Assembly: GCA_017471925.1 (NCBI GenBank) | Contig: JAFURM010000041.1 | Coordinates: forward strand, 1 to 60,940 | Length of the DNA stretch: 60,940 nucleotides | Origin: Bacteroides sp. | GTDB taxonomy: Bacteria > Bacteroidota > Bacteroidia > Bacteroidales > Bacteroidaceae | Direction: 5' to 3' | In this document: piece by piece, positions 28,081 to 60,492 of the stretch | How positions within the stretch are numbered: position 1 is the first letter of the stretch | Layout: each line of letters opens with the position of its first letter | Made by a program: the position numbers and the translations under genes | The notes under the pieces: generated by a model | Databases searched by the model: none | What the model was told of the DNA's origin: nothing | Seen by the model: the letters and a program-made list of their open reading frames with translations, nothing else

Positions 28081-29325
28081 TTATAATTCTTCCATCCTCT
28101 TCACCTCCACCACATAACCATCCCTTTCAATCTTTCGGGATTCGTTGGCAGTGATGAGGAGGAGATTGGAGCAATGTAGCTCTTCGGCGCATTCGATGAG
28201 GGCATCCACTTCTCGTTTCTCGGTTTTGGGTGAGGAGAGGTCGTAACATACTTGGACAAGTTGCTCAATGCGGTTGCCTTGGCGAAGGACAAAATCCACT
28301 TCCTTGTCGTTGCGGGAGCGATAATAGAAAAGAGATTTATCGGTATCGTAACCACGACGGAGCAGTTCTACAAAAACTTGATTTTCAAGCAAACGACCAA
28401 GGTTATCACTCAAATTAAAGGCCTTGGCGGTAACAAAGCCATTGTCCACTACATAGACTTTTCGTGCGGCTCGCTTCATCAACTTCAGCTTGTTGTTGTA
28501 GCGGGACAGGTAGAAGAACAGGTAGGGTTCGTGCAAATAGTCCATGAACTTGGCTGTTGTGGTAACACTCGACAGTCCCAAGTCATTGGCAAGTTCATTC
28601 GTGGTCAGCGGATTGCAGAAATTGGTAAGCAGGTACATGGCCAAGGTGTTGAGGTCTGTAGTGTTCCGTACCCGATGACGCTGGCTGACATCTTTCCAAA
28701 CGATGGAGTCGAAGAGTGTAGAGAGATAGCTTTTGGTGATGTTGCGTGCCTCCACAGTTTCCGGATAACCACCGTTGCGCAGGTAGTCATCGGTCAAGGC
28801 AGCAACTTCCGTGCGAGGCATTCCTGTCAAGTCGTGTGGATTGAGTTTGTTCCACTCGAATACTTCTTCCAGACTGAAAGGAAGCATTTCTATCTGCAAA
28901 TAGCGGCCGGTCAGTGCGGTAGCCATCTCACTGCTCAACATCTTGGCATTACTGCCGATTATCACGAGGTTCTTTCCACGACGATAGAGTTTCGACACCC
29001 ACAAGTCCCAGCCGTCGAGGTTCTGCACCTCATCGAGCAACAGATATTCGTAGGCCGGATAAACTTCATCGAGCATACGCATCACCAAATCTTCGCCCCA
29101 AGCGGAAAGTAGTTGGCCATCATCAAAATTCAGGTAAGCGAAGTTCTTGCCTCGCAACATCAGCAGTGCCTGAGTTGACTTACCCACTCGTCGCGGCCCG
29201 CTTATCAGTTTTATCATGGGGTTGGCCAACAACTCATCTTTGTCATAACGAGTATGCCGGTGCAGATAAGGACGAGCCAACAGTTCGTCCCGTTCCTTGC
29301 GCTGATTCAGTAATATATTTTTCAT
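28081..29325 (-). CDS. AAA_14/DUF4143 ATP-binding protein (complete)
   Basis: A 414-residue protein. The Walker A motif is GPRRVGKST (43-51) and the Walker B motif YLLLDEVQN (about 93-101), followed by sensor-like VIIGSNAKML. The C-terminal half is DUF4143 with the PD-(D/E)XK-like FYYRSRNDKEVDFVLRQGN and LVQVCYDLS. The family is large in Bacteroides and is often found in variable regions; its role is unknown, though the nuclease-like fold suggests action on nucleic acid. It neighbours a broken relative, 142 bases away, and two further members lie in this window. Confidence 0.88.
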   Translation of the reverse strand: MKNILLNQRKERDELLARPYLHRHTRYDKDELLANPMIKLISGPRRVGKSTQALLMLRGKNFAYLNFDDGQLLSAWGEDLVMRMLDEVYPAYEYLLLDEVQNLDGWDLWVSKLYRRGKNLVIIGSNAKMLSSEMATALTGRYLQIEMLPFSLEEVFEWNKLNPHDLTGMPRTEVAALTDDYLRNGGYPETVEARNITKSYLSTLFDSIVWKDVSQRHRVRNTTDLNTLAMYLLTNFCNPLTTNELANDLGLSSVTTTAKFMDYLHEPYLFFYLSRYNNKLKLMKRAARKVYVVDNGFVTAKAFNLSDNLGRLLENQVFVELLRRGYDTDKSLFYYRSRNDKEVDFVLRQGNRIEQLVQVCYDLSSPKTEKREVDALIECAEELHCSNLLLITANESRKIERDGYVVEVKRMEEL

Positions 29326-29467: not shown

Positions 29468-30456
29468 TCACACACCTTCGCGCAAGAAATGCCTTAAATG
29501 CAGATGGATGATTCCATCGGAATCGTTTCGGGTAACAAACGGGGTCAGAGAGATGACATACTTGGGGTAATTGTCGTTAATGGCTTGCAGATTGCCGAAT
29601 TCACGCTTCCGTGTGGTTTCATCGGCTATGACATAAGCCACCTGGACATAATTCCTATGCCCATCCGGACGGAGACAAACAAAATCTATTTCACCGGCTT
29701 GGAGCTGCCCCACATACACCTGATAGCCCAGACGGACGAAGTGCTGATACACAACGTTTTCCAACACTTTTTCCATATCGCCCTCGCAGCTTCCTCCCAC
29801 AATGGCATTGCGGATACCGTTGTCTTCAAAATAAAATTTGTCGTTGCTCTCGAAGATGCGGCGACCGTGAATGTCGTAACGGTTTACCTTGTGGATGATA
29901 TAAGCCTCTTCCAGATACTTGAAGTAGCTAAGAATCATAGCAGGTGTTATCTGCTCGCCTTGCGACTTCATATATTTGCTCACGCTATTGGCCGAGATAA
30001 GTTTGCCGGTATTGTCTGCAAGAAACATCACCAGATTCTCAAGAAACGGAACGTTGCGGATTTGGTTCCTCATCACGACATCCTTCAGCAACACCGTGTG
30101 GTAGATATCCTTCTGGTATTCACGGGCAAACTCCTCTTCAAACCCCATCTTCAGCAAACCCGGCATACCGCCGTAATTCAGATAAAGTGCCAGCGTTTCG
30201 TTACTGTCCGGCAAGTGGTGGAAGTCCATAAACTCACCGTAGCTTAGAGGCTGTATGTGGATTTCCTTGTAACGTCCGCCAATGATGGTGGCCAAATCGT
30301 TACTCAGCATTTTGGCATTGCTGCCCGTTATCACAATATCGGTGTCGGGCTCGGTGCGGAAGCTGCGCACGCTGCGTTCAAACTCAGCAATGTCCTGCAC
30401 CTCGTCAATGATTGGGAAATCCTATCGAGATAGCGGGGTCTTTTCAATACTTCCAT
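29468..30456 (-). pseudogene. DUF4143 ATPase with internal deletion removing Walker A
   Basis: From 30400 down, the frame is a good DUF4143 ATPase: IVITGSNAKMLSNDLATIIG, GRYKEIHIQPLSYGEF and, at the C-terminus, AGEIDFVCLRPDG. Just upstream the Walker B region FPIIDEVQD is present in the same frame, but no Walker A precedes it. Instead an ATG at 30456 in another frame gives MEVLKRPRYLDRI, the usual start of these proteins. About 80 residues including the P-loop are thus missing and the two parts are out of frame at the junction near 30415-30425. The visible 310-residue frame could be translated from an internal ATG but could not bind ATP normally. Confidence 0.75.
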
Positions 30457-32021: not shown

Positions 32022-32780
32022 ATGAAAATAGCACTTATCGGATACGGAAAGATGGGCAAGGAGATAGAGAAAACTGCCCTTCAGCGCGGCCATGAGATTG
32101 TCTGCATCATAGACATAGCCAACCAGCAGGACTTTGCCTCGGAGGCTTTCAAGAGCGCCGACGTGGCCATAGAGTTCACCAGCCCCATGACGGCCCATCA
32201 GAACTGCATGAAGGCATTCGAAGCCGGAGTGAAGGTGGTGAGCGGAAGCACCGGATGGTTGCAGCAGCACCATGAAGAGTTGCACACCCTCTGCACCACA
32301 GGCGGGAAGACCCTCTTCTGGAGCAGCAACTTCAGCCTGGGAGTGGCCCTGTTCAGAGCCGTGAACACCTACCTGGCACGCATCATGAACGCATTCCCCG
32401 AATATGACGTGAGCCTCACCGAGATTCACCACATACACAAGCTGGACGCACCCAGCGGAACAGCCATCACCCTGGCCGAAGACATCCTGAAGCAGATGGA
32501 ACGAAAAAGCCGGTGGGTGAAGGGAAGACTGACGGCAGCAGACGGCACCCTGAGCGGAACCACCCGGTGCCAGGCCAACGAACTGCCCGTAAGTTCGGAG
32601 CGGCGAGGCGAAGAACCCGGCACGCACACCGTGACCTATGACTCCGAGGCCGACACCATCACCATCACCCACCAAGCCAAGAACCGACGGGGATTCGCCC
32701 TGGGAGCCGTGCTGGCAGCCGAATTCACCGCCACACACCAAGGACTCCTGAGCATGGAAGACCTCTTCGACTTCGAGTGA
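32022..32780 (+). CDS. dapB: 4-hydroxy-tetrahydrodipicolinate reductase
   Basis: A 252-residue enzyme that reduces hydroxy-tetrahydrodipicolinate with NAD(P)H in the lysine/diaminopimelate pathway, supplying peptidoglycan precursors. The nucleotide-binding start is IALIGYGKMGKEIEK. The catalytic signature is EIHHIHKLDAPSGTA, with the conserved His pair and Lys. It precedes the signal peptidase genes on the same strand. Confidence 0.95.
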   Translation: MKIALIGYGKMGKEIEKTALQRGHEIVCIIDIANQQDFASEAFKSADVAIEFTSPMTAHQNCMKAFEAGVKVVSGSTGWLQQHHEELHTLCTTGGKTLFWSSNFSLGVALFRAVNTYLARIMNAFPEYDVSLTEIHHIHKLDAPSGTAITLAEDILKQMERKSRWVKGRLTAADGTLSGTTRCQANELPVSSERRGEEPGTHTVTYDSEADTITITHQAKNRRGFALGAVLAAEFTATHQGLLSMEDLFDFE

Positions 32781-32785
32781 ATGAT

Positions 32786-32823
32786 GAATCATCAACCATC
32801 AATTATCAACTATCAATTATACC
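32786..32823 (+). repeat. Short AT repeat spacer dapB/lepB
   Basis: Tandem variants of ATCAACCATCAATTATCAACTATCAATTAT-type 7-9-base units fill the gap between dapB and the lepB start. They are the same kind of sequence as at 34290, 35463 and 41960-42100. Confidence 0.6.
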
Positions 32824-32824
32824 A

Positions 32825-34282
32825 ATGAAACAATGGATTAAATTCATCATCGTGGCCCTGCTCTATGTGGGTTTCCTCGTGTGGGTGGAGAGCTGGTGGG
32901 GCATCATCGTCCTGCCCTTCCTCTATGATGCCTATATCAGCAAGAAGATTCCCTGGACGTGGTGGAGACGGAGCCGGAGCCGGAGCGTGCGCAGCATCAT
33001 GAGCTGGGTGGACGCCATTGTGTTTGCCCTGGTAGCCGTGTACTTCGTGAACATCTACCTCTTCCAGAACTACCAGATTCCCAGTTCCTCGTTAGAGAAG
33101 TCATTGCTGGTGGGAGACTTCCTGTACGTCAGCAAGATGAGCTACGGGCCCCGAGTGCCGCAGACCCCCCTCTCCATGCCGCTGACGCAGCATACCATGC
33201 CCATCACCGGAACAAAGTCATACATCGAGTGGCCCCAATGGGAATACAAGCGGGTGAAGGGAACGGGACACGTGGAGCTGAACGACATCGTGGTATTCAA
33301 CTTCCCCGCCGGAGACACCGTGGCCCTGAACCATCAGATGGAAGACTTCTACAGCCTGGTCTATCGCGAAGGACGGCGCCTCTATCCCAAACCATTGCAG
33401 ATGGACAGCCTGAGCAAGGAAGAGCAGGCACGCGTGTACAACCTCTACTATAGTGCCGGGCGCAACTTGGTGCGCACCAATCCGCAGCTCTACGGCAAGG
33501 TCATCACACGACCTGTGGACCGCAGGGAAAACTACGTGAAACGCTGTACCGCACTGCCCGGAGACACCCTGCAAATCATCGGCGGACAGGTGTACATCAA
33601 CGGACAGGCCACAGAGAACCCCGAGGACCTGCAGTTCAACTACTACGTGCAGACCACCGGCCCCCTGATACACGAAGACACCTTCCGCCAGCTGGGCATC
33701 AGCCGCGACGACCAGTTGCTCCTGAATCCCGACCCCGCCAGCCTGAAGGCCATGGGATTCAACGCACACGATGCACAGGGACGGCCCGCCCCCCTCTACC
33801 ACCTGCCCCTGACCCGGCAGATGCTCACCACTCTGCAAGGCAACAAAAAACTCATCAGCCGCATCGTCAAAGAGAGCAGTCCCGAGGGCGAAGTATATCC
33901 CCTGAACCTGAACACACACTGGACACGCGATGACTACGGCCCCATCTGGATTCCCAAGAAAGGAGAGACCATCACCCTGACCCCGGACAACCTGCCCATC
34001 TACAGCCGATGCATCGAAGCCTACGAGGGCAACAAACTGGAGGTGAAGCCTGACGGCATCTACATCAACGGCACGAAGAGCGACAACTATACCTTCCGCA
34101 TGGACTACTACTGGATGATGGGCGACAACCGTCACAACTCGCTGGACTCCCGCTACTGGGGATTCGTGCCCGAAGACCACGTGGTGGGCAAACCCATCCT
34201 CATCTGGCTCTCCTTAGACAAGGACCGCGGCTGGTTAGACGGCAAAATCAGATGGAAAAGACTGTTCAAGTGGGTAGAGTGA
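32825..34282 (+). CDS. lepB: Signal peptidase I (active form)
   Basis: A 485-residue membrane-bound signal peptidase, long as is usual in Bacteroides. Helices lie at about 4-34 and 62-80. The nucleophile is S89 in YQIPSSSLEK and the general base K239 in NYVKRCTALPGDTL; MMGDNRHNSLDSRYWGFVPE forms the conserved C-terminal box. It removes signal peptides of exported proteins on the outer face of the inner membrane. The start is ATG 32825 (MKQWIKFIIVALLYV). It is followed by a shorter paralogue with the same C-terminal end (LDKDRGWxDGKIRWKR). Confidence 0.94.
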   Translation: MKQWIKFIIVALLYVGFLVWVESWWGIIVLPFLYDAYISKKIPWTWWRRSRSRSVRSIMSWVDAIVFALVAVYFVNIYLFQNYQIPSSSLEKSLLVGDFLYVSKMSYGPRVPQTPLSMPLTQHTMPITGTKSYIEWPQWEYKRVKGTGHVELNDIVVFNFPAGDTVALNHQMEDFYSLVYREGRRLYPKPLQMDSLSKEEQARVYNLYYSAGRNLVRTNPQLYGKVITRPVDRRENYVKRCTALPGDTLQIIGGQVYINGQATENPEDLQFNYYVQTTGPLIHEDTFRQLGISRDDQLLLNPDPASLKAMGFNAHDAQGRPAPLYHLPLTRQMLTTLQGNKKLISRIVKESSPEGEVYPLNLNTHWTRDDYGPIWIPKKGETITLTPDNLPIYSRCIEAYEGNKLEVKPDGIYINGTKSDNYTFRMDYYWMMGDNRHNSLDSRYWGFVPEDHVVGKPILIWLSLDKDRGWLDGKIRWKRLFKWVE

Positions 34283-34289
34283 AGCTGAT

Positions 34290-34362
34290 TAATGATGAAT
34301 GATTAATTGTGAATGATGCATTATCAACTGTCAATTATCAACTATCAATTATCAATTAAAGA
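34290..34362 (+). repeat. AT repeat spacer between the two lepB genes
   Basis: Tandem variants of ATTATCAACTGTCAATTATCA fill the gap, ending just before GAAGAATG. It resembles the spacers at 32786 and 35463. Confidence 0.6.
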
Positions 34363-34365
34363 AGA

Positions 34366-35310
34366 ATGAAACGCTTCAGGAATATACTCCTCCTACTAAT
34401 TACGGCACTGCTCATTGCAGCCGTGCTGAGGGGAGCAGTGTTCACATCGTTCCTGATACCCTCCGCCGGCATGGAGCCGGCACTGAAACAGGGAGAGCAG
34501 GTCATCGCCGGCAAGTGGAGCTACGGGCTGCGCCTGCCGCTGATGAGCCTGTGGGGCTACCAACGCTGGGGAGAGAGGGCTGCCGCACGACACGACATCC
34601 TGCTCTTCAACAACCCCGCCGACCACCGGCAACCGCTCATCGACCGCAGGGAGGTCTTCATCGGCCGGCTCACGGGACTGCCCGGTGACACCCTATGGGC
34701 CGACACGGACTTCACCCAGGTCATCACCGCCCCCGAAGCACCCGACCGGCGGAAAGCCTACCGCTGTCCCAACAGCCGCCGTACGGAGCTGGACTCCCTG
34801 GTCCTCCGCCTGCACCTGCCCCGTCCCATCCCCCTGGCCGAAGACAGCCTCTGCACCACCTACTGCTTCAGCCTGCTGGAGCACTACCTACTGCAACAAG
34901 CCCTCTACGGGCACTGCTGGATTGAGCCTGCCGGAGCCGAGGCCGACTCCCTATGCCGTTTCCATCCGCTCGTCATCCCCGCCAAGGGAAAGCCCGTAAA
35001 GGTGACCCCCTGGAACATCACCCTACTCTGCAACACCCTCAGGCTCCACGAACAACGCTCTGCCGAAATCCGGCAAGACACCCTCCTCTGCATAGACGGA
35101 CAGCCCGTGCAGGAGGTCACCTTCACCCAAGACTACCACTGGGTCACCTCGGACAACCCCGCCAACATCGCCGACTCGCGCCTCTTCGGCTTCCTCCCCA
35201 AGAGCCACATCATCGGACGGGCCACACACATCGGCCTCTCTTTAGACAAGGACCGCGGCTGGTCAGACGGCAAAATCAGATGGAAAAGGATGTTCAAACG
35301 GATAGAATAA
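34366..35310 (+). CDS. Signal peptidase I-like paralogue lacking the catalytic dyad
   Basis: A 314-residue S26 family protein. One membrane helix (about 7-28) is followed by FLIPSAGMEPAL, where the position of the nucleophile (S89 of the upstream lepB) is Gly35. The general-base segment reads EVFIGRLTGLPGDTL, Gly100 replacing the Lys before Arg. The fold appears complete (HDILLFNNP, VTSDNPANIADSRLFGFLPK and SHIIGRATHIGLSLDKDRGW) and the C-terminus matches the upstream gene. The frame is intact over its length. It is thus likely a catalytically dead paralogue kept for another role, perhaps binding LepB or substrates. Ser33, two residues away, is a conceivable replacement nucleophile. Confidence 0.85.
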   Translation: MKRFRNILLLLITALLIAAVLRGAVFTSFLIPSAGMEPALKQGEQVIAGKWSYGLRLPLMSLWGYQRWGERAAARHDILLFNNPADHRQPLIDRREVFIGRLTGLPGDTLWADTDFTQVITAPEAPDRRKAYRCPNSRRTELDSLVLRLHLPRPIPLAEDSLCTTYCFSLLEHYLLQQALYGHCWIEPAGAEADSLCRFHPLVIPAKGKPVKVTPWNITLLCNTLRLHEQRSAEIRQDTLLCIDGQPVQEVTFTQDYHWVTSDNPANIADSRLFGFLPKSHIIGRATHIGLSLDKDRGWSDGKIRWKRMFKRIE

Positions 35311-35462: not shown

Positions 35463-35498
35463 ATTATAAACTGTCAACTATAAACTATCAATTACAAC
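35463..35498 (+). repeat. AT repeat spacer before the WbqC-like gene
   Basis: The sequence TTATAAACTGTCAACTATAA and following AACTATCAATTACAA precede the start codon, as in front of the two signal peptidase genes. Confidence 0.5.
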
Positions 35499-35501
35499 AG
35501 C

Positions 35502-36134
35502 ATGTCCCTTCTCCTCTCTTCCGCCTACCTCGCCCCGGTGCAATGGTACAGCAAGTTGCTGTCCGACGGCCCCATCCTGGTGGAGCAACATGAGCACTAC
35601 ACCAAGCAGACCTACCGCAACCGATGCACCATCGCAGCCCCCGACGGTCCGCTGGCACTCTCCATCCCCACCGTGAAGCCCTACAGCCCCAAATGCCCCA
35701 TGCGCGACATACGCATCTCCGACCACGGCAACTGGCGGCACCAGCACTGGAATGCCATAGAGAGCGCCTACAACCAGACACCCTTCTTCGCCTACTACAA
35801 GGACGACTTCCGCCCCTTCTACGAAAAGCAATATGAATTTCTCCTGGACTACAATGAAGAGTTGTGTTGCCTCATCTGTTCACTCATAGACCTGCAGCCC
35901 GACCTGAGACGCACCGACAGCTACCTGCCCGCCACATCCGCAGACCCGGCCATCACCGACCTGCGCGAAGCCATACATCCCAAGCACACACAGGATGACC
36001 CGCAGTTCATCCCCCGGCCCTACTATCAGGTGTTCGCCGACCGCCTGGGCTTCCTGCCCAACCTCAGCATCATCGACCTCCTCTTCAACATGGGACCCGA
36101 ATCGCTCATCGTGCTGCAGCAAAGCCGCCCATAA
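35502..36134 (+). CDS. WbqC-like family protein
   Basis: A 210-residue protein with the PF08889 pattern: AYLAPVQWYSKLL at the start, YTKQTYRNRCTIAAPDGPLA in the middle, then GNWRHQHWNAIESAYNQTPF and FYEKQYEFLLDYNEEL, and LSIIDLLFNMGPES at the end. The family is named after an O-antigen cluster gene and is of unproven function, possibly sugar modification. In Bacteroides it commonly follows the signal peptidase genes, as here. Confidence 0.85.
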   Translation: MSLLLSSAYLAPVQWYSKLLSDGPILVEQHEHYTKQTYRNRCTIAAPDGPLALSIPTVKPYSPKCPMRDIRISDHGNWRHQHWNAIESAYNQTPFFAYYKDDFRPFYEKQYEFLLDYNEELCCLICSLIDLQPDLRRTDSYLPATSADPAITDLREAIHPKHTQDDPQFIPRPYYQVFADRLGFLPNLSIIDLLFNMGPESLIVLQQSRP

Positions 36135-41959: not shown

Positions 41960-42100
41960 TATAATTGATAGTTGATAATTGATAGTTGATAATTGACAGT
42001 TGATAGTTTAGGCACGGATATCATTCTCTGCGGAAATCTGCGTTTCGATGCTTCAACTAAAAAATTATCAATTATCAACTGTCAATTATCAATTATACTG
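41960..42100. repeat. AT-rich inverted repeat between purH and mreB
   Basis: 41965-42006 holds repeated TTGATAGTTGATAA and ATTGACAGTTGATAG units. 42062-42098 holds the complementary orientation (TTATCAATTATCAACTGTCAA). Together they form arms of about 37-42 bases that can pair, around a central 55 bases with the GGCACGGAT motif at 42010. The same unit occurs singly before lepB, its paralogue and wbqC. It may be a processing or attenuation structure between the two operon parts. Confidence 0.65.
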
Positions 42101-59169: not shown

Positions 59170-60492
59170 TTACATCTTGGCGACTGCCACCGAAGTCAAT
59201 ACATCGGCCTCACCTGCTGCATACAGGGGGATATTCTCCATCCAAACCTGGTCAATGTAAGGACGAAGACTGATGCGAAGTCCCTTCAGGGAAGGATATA
59301 AATTCTGAATGAAGTAGCGGAGCGACTTGCTGTGCACATTCTCCTCGGCCTTGACCTCTATCGGAATGATGCGTGTCTCCGTCTGGAGCAGAAAATCAAT
59401 CTCACATTCACTATTATTGTTCGACCAATAGTAAATGGGCAACCGCTTGAACAACAACTGCTGCAACACGAACTGCTCCGTAAATGCTCCTTTCCACTCG
59501 CGGAACACATGTTCACCACCCAACACCTGTGAAGCAGGGACACGAGCCAAGCAGCCCAACAATCCATTATCCAAAAGGAAAAGTTTGAAAGCCGACAAGT
59601 CTTCATAAAAACTCAGCGGCATGATGGCCTCAGACGTACGTGGAACCTTGATAACAACACCCGCATCTATCAGCCATTGGATGGCCAATTCATACTCCTT
59701 GGCACGTGCACCATTTCGGAGCACGCCATAGAGAAACTTCTTATTTTCTCGACTCAGTTGTGAGGGCAAACTGTGAAGCACCTGCAATATACGTTGCACC
59801 TCGCGGGTTGGCGCATGTTTGCTGATGTCATGCCGATAGCCCGACAGTATGTTCTGCTGAATGGCACGTACTTCCTCCAAATCGTGATTGGCAGCAAACT
59901 TAGCCACAGCTTCGGGCATACCGCCCACAAAATAATATTGCCGAAGCAACTCTTCATAGGAATATGAAAGCGACTGCAGTACATCCCAGTCATGCTGTTC
60001 AATACTACGAGCCTTGGCATCTTCACCCAAAGCATACAGAAATTCAACGAAAGTGAGGGGTTGCACACGAAGGATATCCACCTTGCCCACAGGAAACGAC
60101 TGTCCCTGATGGAGTGTGATGCCAAGCAGGGAACCTGCCACGATGACATGCTGCTCGGGAGCTTCCTCCTGGAAATATTTCAGTACGCCCAACCCACGTG
60201 CCGCCTCTTGCAATTCATCGAAGATAATCAGAGTTTCTCCAGCAACAATCCGTACATTTGTTTGAGCCTGCAGACGCAACAAAATCCGGTTAATGTCATA
60301 GTCGTGTTCAAAAAGATTCTTGGCCCAAACCTCCCTATCGAAATTGACATACACATAGCTGTTGTATTCCCGTTTACCAAACTCTTGCATCAGCCACGTC
60401 TTCCCCACCTGTCGTGCCCCTTCCAGAATAAGGGGTTTACGGTTAGACTTGACCTTCCAGGCCAAAAGAGAGTCATATATTTTTCGTTCCAT
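59170..60492 (-). CDS. AAA_14/DUF4143 ATP-binding protein (complete)
   Basis: A 440-residue member of the same family as the ATPase at 28081, of another subgroup. The Walker A motif is EGARQVGKT (24-32) and Walker B TLIIFDELQ (87-95), followed by HVIVAGSLLGITL. The DUF4143 half contains IYYWSNNNSECEIDFLLQTE and IPIEVKAEENVHSKSLRYF, a PD-(D/E)XK-like pattern with intact E, D and K. A -7 box (reverse-strand TATATTTG, 60546-60539) lies 47 bases before its start. The function is unknown. Confidence 0.9.
   Translation of the reverse strand: MERKIYDSLLAWKVKSNRKPLILEGARQVGKTWLMQEFGKREYNSYVYVNFDREVWAKNLFEHDYDINRILLRLQAQTNVRIVAGETLIIFDELQEAARGLGVLKYFQEEAPEQHVIVAGSLLGITLHQGQSFPVGKVDILRVQPLTFVEFLYALGEDAKARSIEQHDWDVLQSLSYSYEELLRQYYFVGGMPEAVAKFAANHDLEEVRAIQQNILSGYRHDISKHAPTREVQRILQVLHSLPSQLSRENKKFLYGVLRNGARAKEYELAIQWLIDAGVVIKVPRTSEAIMPLSFYEDLSAFKLFLLDNGLLGCLARVPASQVLGGEHVFREWKGAFTEQFVLQQLLFKRLPIYYWSNNNSECEIDFLLQTETRIIPIEVKAEENVHSKSLRYFIQNLYPSLKGLRISLRPYIDQVWMENIPLYAAGEADVLTSVAVAKM

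Follow-up and report, generated by a model that had tools for sequence, protein, structure and literature searches.

A predicted catalytically dead sister of signal peptidase I encoded beside lepB in many Bacteroidales

A second S26-family gene lies directly downstream of an intact lepB gene in a Bacteroides sp. contig, on the same strand and with wbqC on its other side, and its product is, to judge by the residues at its active site, very probably not a Ser-Lys peptidase. The usual view of signal peptidase I is that of an essential enzyme made of one protein, and of a drug target. The stretch of DNA that was analysed, 60,940 nucleotides in length and called the window here, had earlier been given a sequence-only reading, in which the gene was taken for a maintained pseudo-enzyme. 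This proposal was borne out by comparison within the family, where all 57 aligned orthologues were found dead at the active site and selection proved to be purifying (median dN/dS 0.084). The gene was also found intact as that reading had described it, open for 314 codons and adjacent to a LepB with the Ser-Lys dyad.

The features of the locus are collected in the table. The start of LepB is probably the ATG at 32825, as we infer, and not the GTG at 32777 given in the mechanical list of open reading frames. S26 matches in the genome to which the window belongs (59 contigs that total 2.87 Mb, with a completeness of 89%) were limited to lepB and the paralogue. The order dapB>lepB>paralogue>wbqC was observed in 58 of 62 loci that had been picked by a paralogue match (L064-L125; 59 of the 62 are Bacteroidaceae by name and 3 carry no family name, on which ground the family is taken to be Bacteroidaceae), while three of the other four loci end at a contig edge and the fourth, L090, is too short for gene order. 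Over loci L064-L252, wbqC was found on the same strand and at most 3.5 kb downstream in 101 of 189, elsewhere in 13, and not within the fetched DNA in 75; since the fetched regions were chosen by hand, either to represent each family or genus roughly once or from genomes without a full-length match, counts over the whole set of loci should not be read as prevalences. No terminator-like site was found on the + strand between 31900 and 36250, where two sites were found in all.

Table. Coordinates of the lepB locus and of its active-site codons in the window
Feature	Position	Strand	Basis or remark
dapB	32022..32780	+	ORF, synteny; upstream neighbour, annotated as dapB in a Bacteroides relative
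lepB, active-type LepB, 485 aa	32825..34282	+	Ser89/Lys239 dyad
LepB catalytic Ser89 codon	33089..33091	+	
LepB catalytic Lys239 codon	33539..33541	+	
Second S26 gene, signal peptidase I paralogue, predicted catalytically dead	34366..35310	+	ATG start, 314 aa, no internal stop
Paralogue Gly35 codon	34468..34470	+	Catalytic Ser position (E. coli Ser90)
Paralogue Gly100 codon	34663..34665	+	Catalytic Lys position (E. coli Lys145)
Paralogue C-terminal tail	35233..35307	+	65/75 nt shared with the end of lepB (34205-34279)
WbqC-family gene	35502..36134	+	PF08889, synteny; downstream neighbour, WbqC in an annotated Bacteroides relative

Two other observations were made in the window. AT-rich intergenic arrays of a 7/14-bp repeat, with the unit ATTATCAACTATCA, occupy 32787-32820, 34320-34358, 35465-35491 and 41961-42096, one of them sitting just 5' of the paralogue start, and a 20-base version of the ATTATCAACTATCA repeat was found at 43 sites of the genome with at most one mismatch, compared with 1 site for the reversed control. 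The window also holds three AAA_14/DUF4143 genes, all on the minus strand (28081-29325, 29468-30400 and 59170-60492), of which the one at 29468-30400, taken from its listed GTG, matches the second half of the profile only (72-129 of 129).

The search for orthologues covered 60 genus genomes and 151 family genomes, and a cleaned alignment of 57 of them, designated A1, was prepared with L035 and L043 omitted as near-copies. When 118 sequences of both groups were aligned together, Gly35 of the paralogue (in IPSAGM) aligns with Ser89 of LepB and Gly100 (in VFIGR) aligns with Lys239, which confirms for the window copy the replacement of both catalytic residues by glycine that had been read from the sequence. 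LepB carries Ser-Lys in 59/59 loci that have both genes; in the same loci the paralogue shows Gly at the Ser site in all 57 readable rows, and at the Lys site S in 34, G in 16 and N in 9. In A1, the window copy included, Gly is fixed at the Ser site (57/57), and the Lys site is occupied by S in 33, G in 15 and N in 9 sequences. Thus, of the Gly/Gly pair suggested earlier as a conserved state, the first glycine holds throughout the alignment and the second does not. Serine and lysine together, the state that the sequence-only reading had named as its refutation, were found at these two positions in none of the 57 orthologues.

The residues that support the dyad have changed as well. With E. coli residue numbers mapped through a HMMER alignment to 1t7d, the site of Gly272 in box E is S in 34, A in 20 and T in 3 sequences of A1 and Gly in none of the 57, and the Ser278 site is L in 37, I in 7, V in 6, M in 2, R in 2, and F, Y and K in one each, with Ser in 0/57. 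The equivalents of Asp280 and Arg282 are kept, each in 56 of 57. Hence three marks of an active signal peptidase I of family S26A, namely the Ser nucleophile in box B, the Lys general base in box D, and the Lys-supporting Gly272 and Ser278 of box E, were each sought in the 57 orthologues and found in none of them. Because the Ser-Lys dyad is missing, the paralogue would not be classed as an active signal peptidase I. A sequencing error, or decay confined to a single genome, is ruled out, as 57/57 orthologues are dead.

It is very improbable that the protein is still a peptidase by virtue of another Ser or Lys in its active site. Such a peptidase might draw on Ser33, which stands two residues before the old nucleophile and is Ser in 52 of 57 sequences, or on Ser271, which is invariant; however, no lysine is invariant, the best being Lys129 (K in 54/57 and R in 3, the window copy having Arg), Ser271 belongs to a DSR motif common to LepB, and the Gly272 and Ser278 equivalents are lost in addition to the dyad. 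An unusual use of Ser33, once considered for the window protein, is not supported, because five of 57 orthologues have F, Y, A or D at this residue.

The fold of the enzyme seems to be retained around the altered site. The window paralogue matches PF10502 (Peptidase_S26) at 4.7e-21 with 75.9 bits, against a curated cut-off of 22.9 that the window LepB likewise exceeds, and the same profile is matched by 57/57 members of A1 at E <= 0.001. Profile comparison by hhalign aligned the paralogue with the LepB profile over 306 columns (probability 100, E 3e-56), and among solved structures E. coli SPase I is the best relative of the Bacteroidales paralogue profile. By these matches the paralogue has a predicted signal peptidase I core. 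Its hydropathy shows one N-terminal membrane segment at about residues 2-34, and the remainder of the protein is presumed to be periplasmic. LepB is hydrophobic at about 1-33 as well as at about 54-83; the former is an additional N-terminal stretch by which the Bacteroidota LepB differs from the paralogue, and LepB also has extra inserts. The two groups share 43 positions conserved with an identical residue, and 12 positions are fixed to different residues, G35/S89 included. Conservation confined to the paralogue was seen at W51, D127, K129, R166, S167, F168, E172 and P215.

On the substrate side, the paralogue residues equivalent to E. coli I86 (56 of 57 in A1), P87 (57), S88 (52), M91 (57), L95 (52), I144 (57) and R146 (57) are kept, and the E. 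coli residues so listed are those we take to line the substrate cleft. This conservation could have a structural cause. A non-catalytic role in binding or regulation would be the best remaining class of function for the paralogue.

Dead signal peptidases are already known in Firmicutes, where SpsA occurs alongside a live enzyme. In S. aureus, spsA and spsB are adjacent genes. SpsA is described in one report as being without two conserved catalytic residues, coexisting with the active SpsB, and dispensable (PMC12445088). The Bacteroidales paralogue resembles SpsA, by that description, in being a dead copy adjoining an active one, and differs in that SpsA comes from a Firmicute whereas the closest solved relative of the paralogue is E. 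coli SPase I. In S. pyogenes SipA, according to another report, Ser, Lys, Gly272 and Ser278 are changed and the cleft is retained, the protein is essential for pilus polymerisation, and no peptide binding was detectable in vitro (PMC4049620). The same pattern, in sequence terms, is shared by the paralogue, in which the dyad and the Gly272/Ser278 equivalents are lost and the cleft is kept, but the dyad sites are occupied by Asp/Gly in SipA and by Gly/(S,G,N) in the paralogue. As SipA shows no detectable binding of peptide in vitro, a kept cleft is no proof of binding.

These likenesses raise the alternative that the paralogue is a SipA-like assembly factor, independent of LepB, which binds one class of envelope protein such as the precursors of fimbrial proteins or surface lipoproteins. 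The S. pyogenes SipA, dead at the same sites with its cleft kept and needed for pilus polymerisation (PMC4049620), offers a precedent, and the patchy presence of the paralogue suits a role tied to a substrate class. However, SipA is encoded in a pilus cluster, whereas the paralogue adjoins lepB and lies between dapB and wbqC in the loci compared; no pilus or sortase cluster was found around it in the window, where its neighbours are dapB, lepB and wbqC. Furthermore, a search of the PDB with the paralogue profile found E. coli SPase I and no SipA-named chain up to E = 10. On balance, an assembly factor of this kind is considered unlikely.

LepB had been regarded as the active parent of the paralogue, a view that gave way once phylogenetic trees were built. 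In a tree of 105 proteins, the paralogues together with L147 and L157 fall on one side of a split of 40 against 65 rows (SH-aLRT 96.8). The split stays, at 36 against 93 rows with support 94, in an enlarged tree that takes in 26 loci of other orders, contributing 30 rows, and leaves out six long-branch rows and the two catalytic columns; the added loci had been selected as the top matches to the A1 paralogue profile and are not a random draw. All 30 rows from other orders fall on the LepB side, 28 of them with Ser-Lys and 2 unreadable at Ser but with Lys. On both trees, then, the paralogue branches outside the LepB group, as an ancient lineage sister to LepB that occurs in many of the sampled Bacteroidales. 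A recent duplication of the neighbouring lepB is ruled out by the trees. A separate case of tandem genes was noticed at L126 (897-5029) of Mucilaginibacter flavidus, where three active-type signal peptidase genes with Ser-Lys follow dapB.

The course of the loss can be followed in a string of six sites, corresponding to Ser90, Lys145, Gly272, Ser278, Asp280 and Arg282 of E. coli. The string reads SKGSDR in 54/54 LepB rows and in 28/28 readable rows from other orders; among the 36 rows of the paralogue clade it is found only in L147 and L157, both from one Bacteroidales family. These two paralogue-lineage genes (L147, 1426-2514; L157, 1498-2580) have all six active-site residues intact, and their products are apparently enzymes that stayed active after the duplication. 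In L151 and L205 the Ser-Lys pair persists but box E shows Asp and Ala, six rows have Lys without Ser (KK, KK, RK, RK, LK and MK), and the other 26 rows are without Lys, with Ser still present in one pair (L149 and L153). In the deep Bacteroidales branch this distribution suggests a stepwise loss that proceeded from box E to Ser and then to Lys. The order is not uniform, as five of the 21 rows of the window subclade (L146, L148, L158, L166 and L170, with QG, QG, QA, QA and QS) still have the box-E Gly although both Ser and Lys are gone, and the dead state arose more than once on the tree (4 changes over 39 rows). The window subclade itself, which takes in Parabacteroides and a Porphyromonadaceae bacterium, is dead throughout (21 rows with support 100 in the enlarged tree; 22 rows with support 94 in the 105-protein tree). 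The surviving intermediates of the one branch, in which box E, then Ser and then Lys would have been lost, form a natural record of the passage from protease to pseudo-protease.

Selection on the two genes was compared in 33 close pairs, in which the median dN/dS was 0.084 for the paralogue (30 defined pairs) and 0.043 for lepB (29 defined); the pair L053/L058 gives values identical to those of L105/L112 and probably represents the same genomes. The purifying ratio implies that selection maintains the paralogue family, though with a looser grip than on LepB, and the paralogue evolves about twice as fast. In the genus sample of 60, a full-length paralogue match was found in 45 genomes, G038 being counted among them with a TGA inside the matched stretch; the paralogue is only 218-244 aa in 4 genomes, in G010 the match to a 302-aa frame is split in two, lepB occurs without the paralogue in 6, and the locus was not found in 4. 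Where the paralogue is missing, wbqC comes straight after lepB in 5 of the 6 genomes, and no wbqC was found in G019. The five copies of odd length have Gly at the Ser site in 5/5, and at the Lys site Gly in 4 with one unreadable. The shortened copies (L287, L288, L291 and L292) thus retain the glycine at the Ser site, and those of G035 and G041 are without the middle of the protein (about residues 119-192), the seat of the paralogue-specific motif RSFSxYExYLLEQ.

Beyond the genus, 20 regions from other genera of the family, one of which (L235) is cut short, contain a paralogue of 197-255 aa in 9, one of 281-293 aa in 2, and none in 9. Presence and absence of the paralogue require 8 changes on a LepB tree of 90 family rows, and 4 of these are forced by well-supported branches. 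None of the 57 orthologues has drifted as far as the window copy, which departs at 15 of 84 near-invariant columns where the median is 1. From such absences, shortenings and drift it could be argued that the paralogue is a relic, an ancient duplicate which drift is gradually removing. But the low median dN/dS given above, the open frames, and the 30 columns that are invariant across the 57 sequences of A1, with Gly fixed at the old Ser site, weigh against a relic, which is decidedly improbable.

The C-terminus, taken in the sequence-only reading as a part shared with LepB, turned out not to be shared at this level by the family. The last 75 coding nucleotides of the window paralogue and of its own lepB, matching at all but ten positions, stand far apart from the median of 28/75 over 156 lepB/paralogue pairs. 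The next Bacteroidaceae pair reaches 41/75 and three deep Bacteroidales pairs reach 54, 48 and 44; the A1 consensus tail differs from that of the window paralogue. The simplest reading is that the tail arose probably by local gene conversion in the lineage of the window, and the ten differences argue against a copied assembly error.

Drawing on these sequence features and on the analogy with SpsA and SipA, we give an even chance to a model in which the paralogue is a membrane-anchored pseudo-signal peptidase that binds segments of exported proteins beside LepB, as an SpsA/SipA-like accessory. The protein would be tethered to the inner membrane, expose its domain to the periplasm and not itself cut; its retained cleft would hold the signal-peptide or early-mature segment of exported proteins next to LepB, and the paralogue might then act as a receptor, a holdase or a regulator of LepB. 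Since it has been lost repeatedly, the paralogue would be accessory, and since several relatives have LepB alone at the locus, it would be unneeded for the basic reaction. Likewise, any partnership with LepB would be dispensable, because the paralogue is absent at the lepB locus in 6/60 and shortened in 4/60 genus genomes and changes state 8 times on the tree. Its repeated clean loss is among the chief evidence against the accessory-binding model, and its faster evolution and the drift of the window copy also count against that model.

Position beside lepB, substrate-side residues that are kept, and catalysis that is lost would equally suit a decoy or brake, which binds signal peptides or LepB, lowers LepB activity, and tunes export to envelope stress. 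Such logic is known for other pseudoproteases. The present evidence, however, does not separate inhibition from assistance, and a braking role is rated no less improbable than a relic. It is conceivable, though quite doubtful, that signal peptidase I works as a two-part enzyme in many Bacteroidales, in which LepB cuts and the dead sister, inherited next to it, presents or selects substrates.

No description of this Bacteroidales paralogue family was found in open-licence PMC text. 'LepB' does not occur in the papers considered on the Q rule of Bacteroidota, and their available passages make no mention of a dead paralogue. In PMC10434189, BT0667 is called 'lepB'. In one B. finegoldii record (NZ_OY725906.1; L279, 3935-4876), the dead paralogue is annotated 'lepB, signal peptidase I' and the active enzyme just 'S26 family signal peptidase'. 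The same 112-kb record is filed as a plasmid, yet it has dapB and lepB. The name lepB on a dead paralogue, as in this annotated Bacteroides record, is an annotation trap.

A two-part enzyme, if true, would give bacteria an equivalent of the multi-subunit signal peptidase complex of eukaryotes, and it could influence the habit of cleavage with Gln at +1 in the exported proteins of Bacteroidota. In conclusion, a conserved dead sister of LepB in Bacteroides, Phocaeicola, Parabacteroides and their relatives would imply an unstudied step of protein export in dominant gut bacteria.
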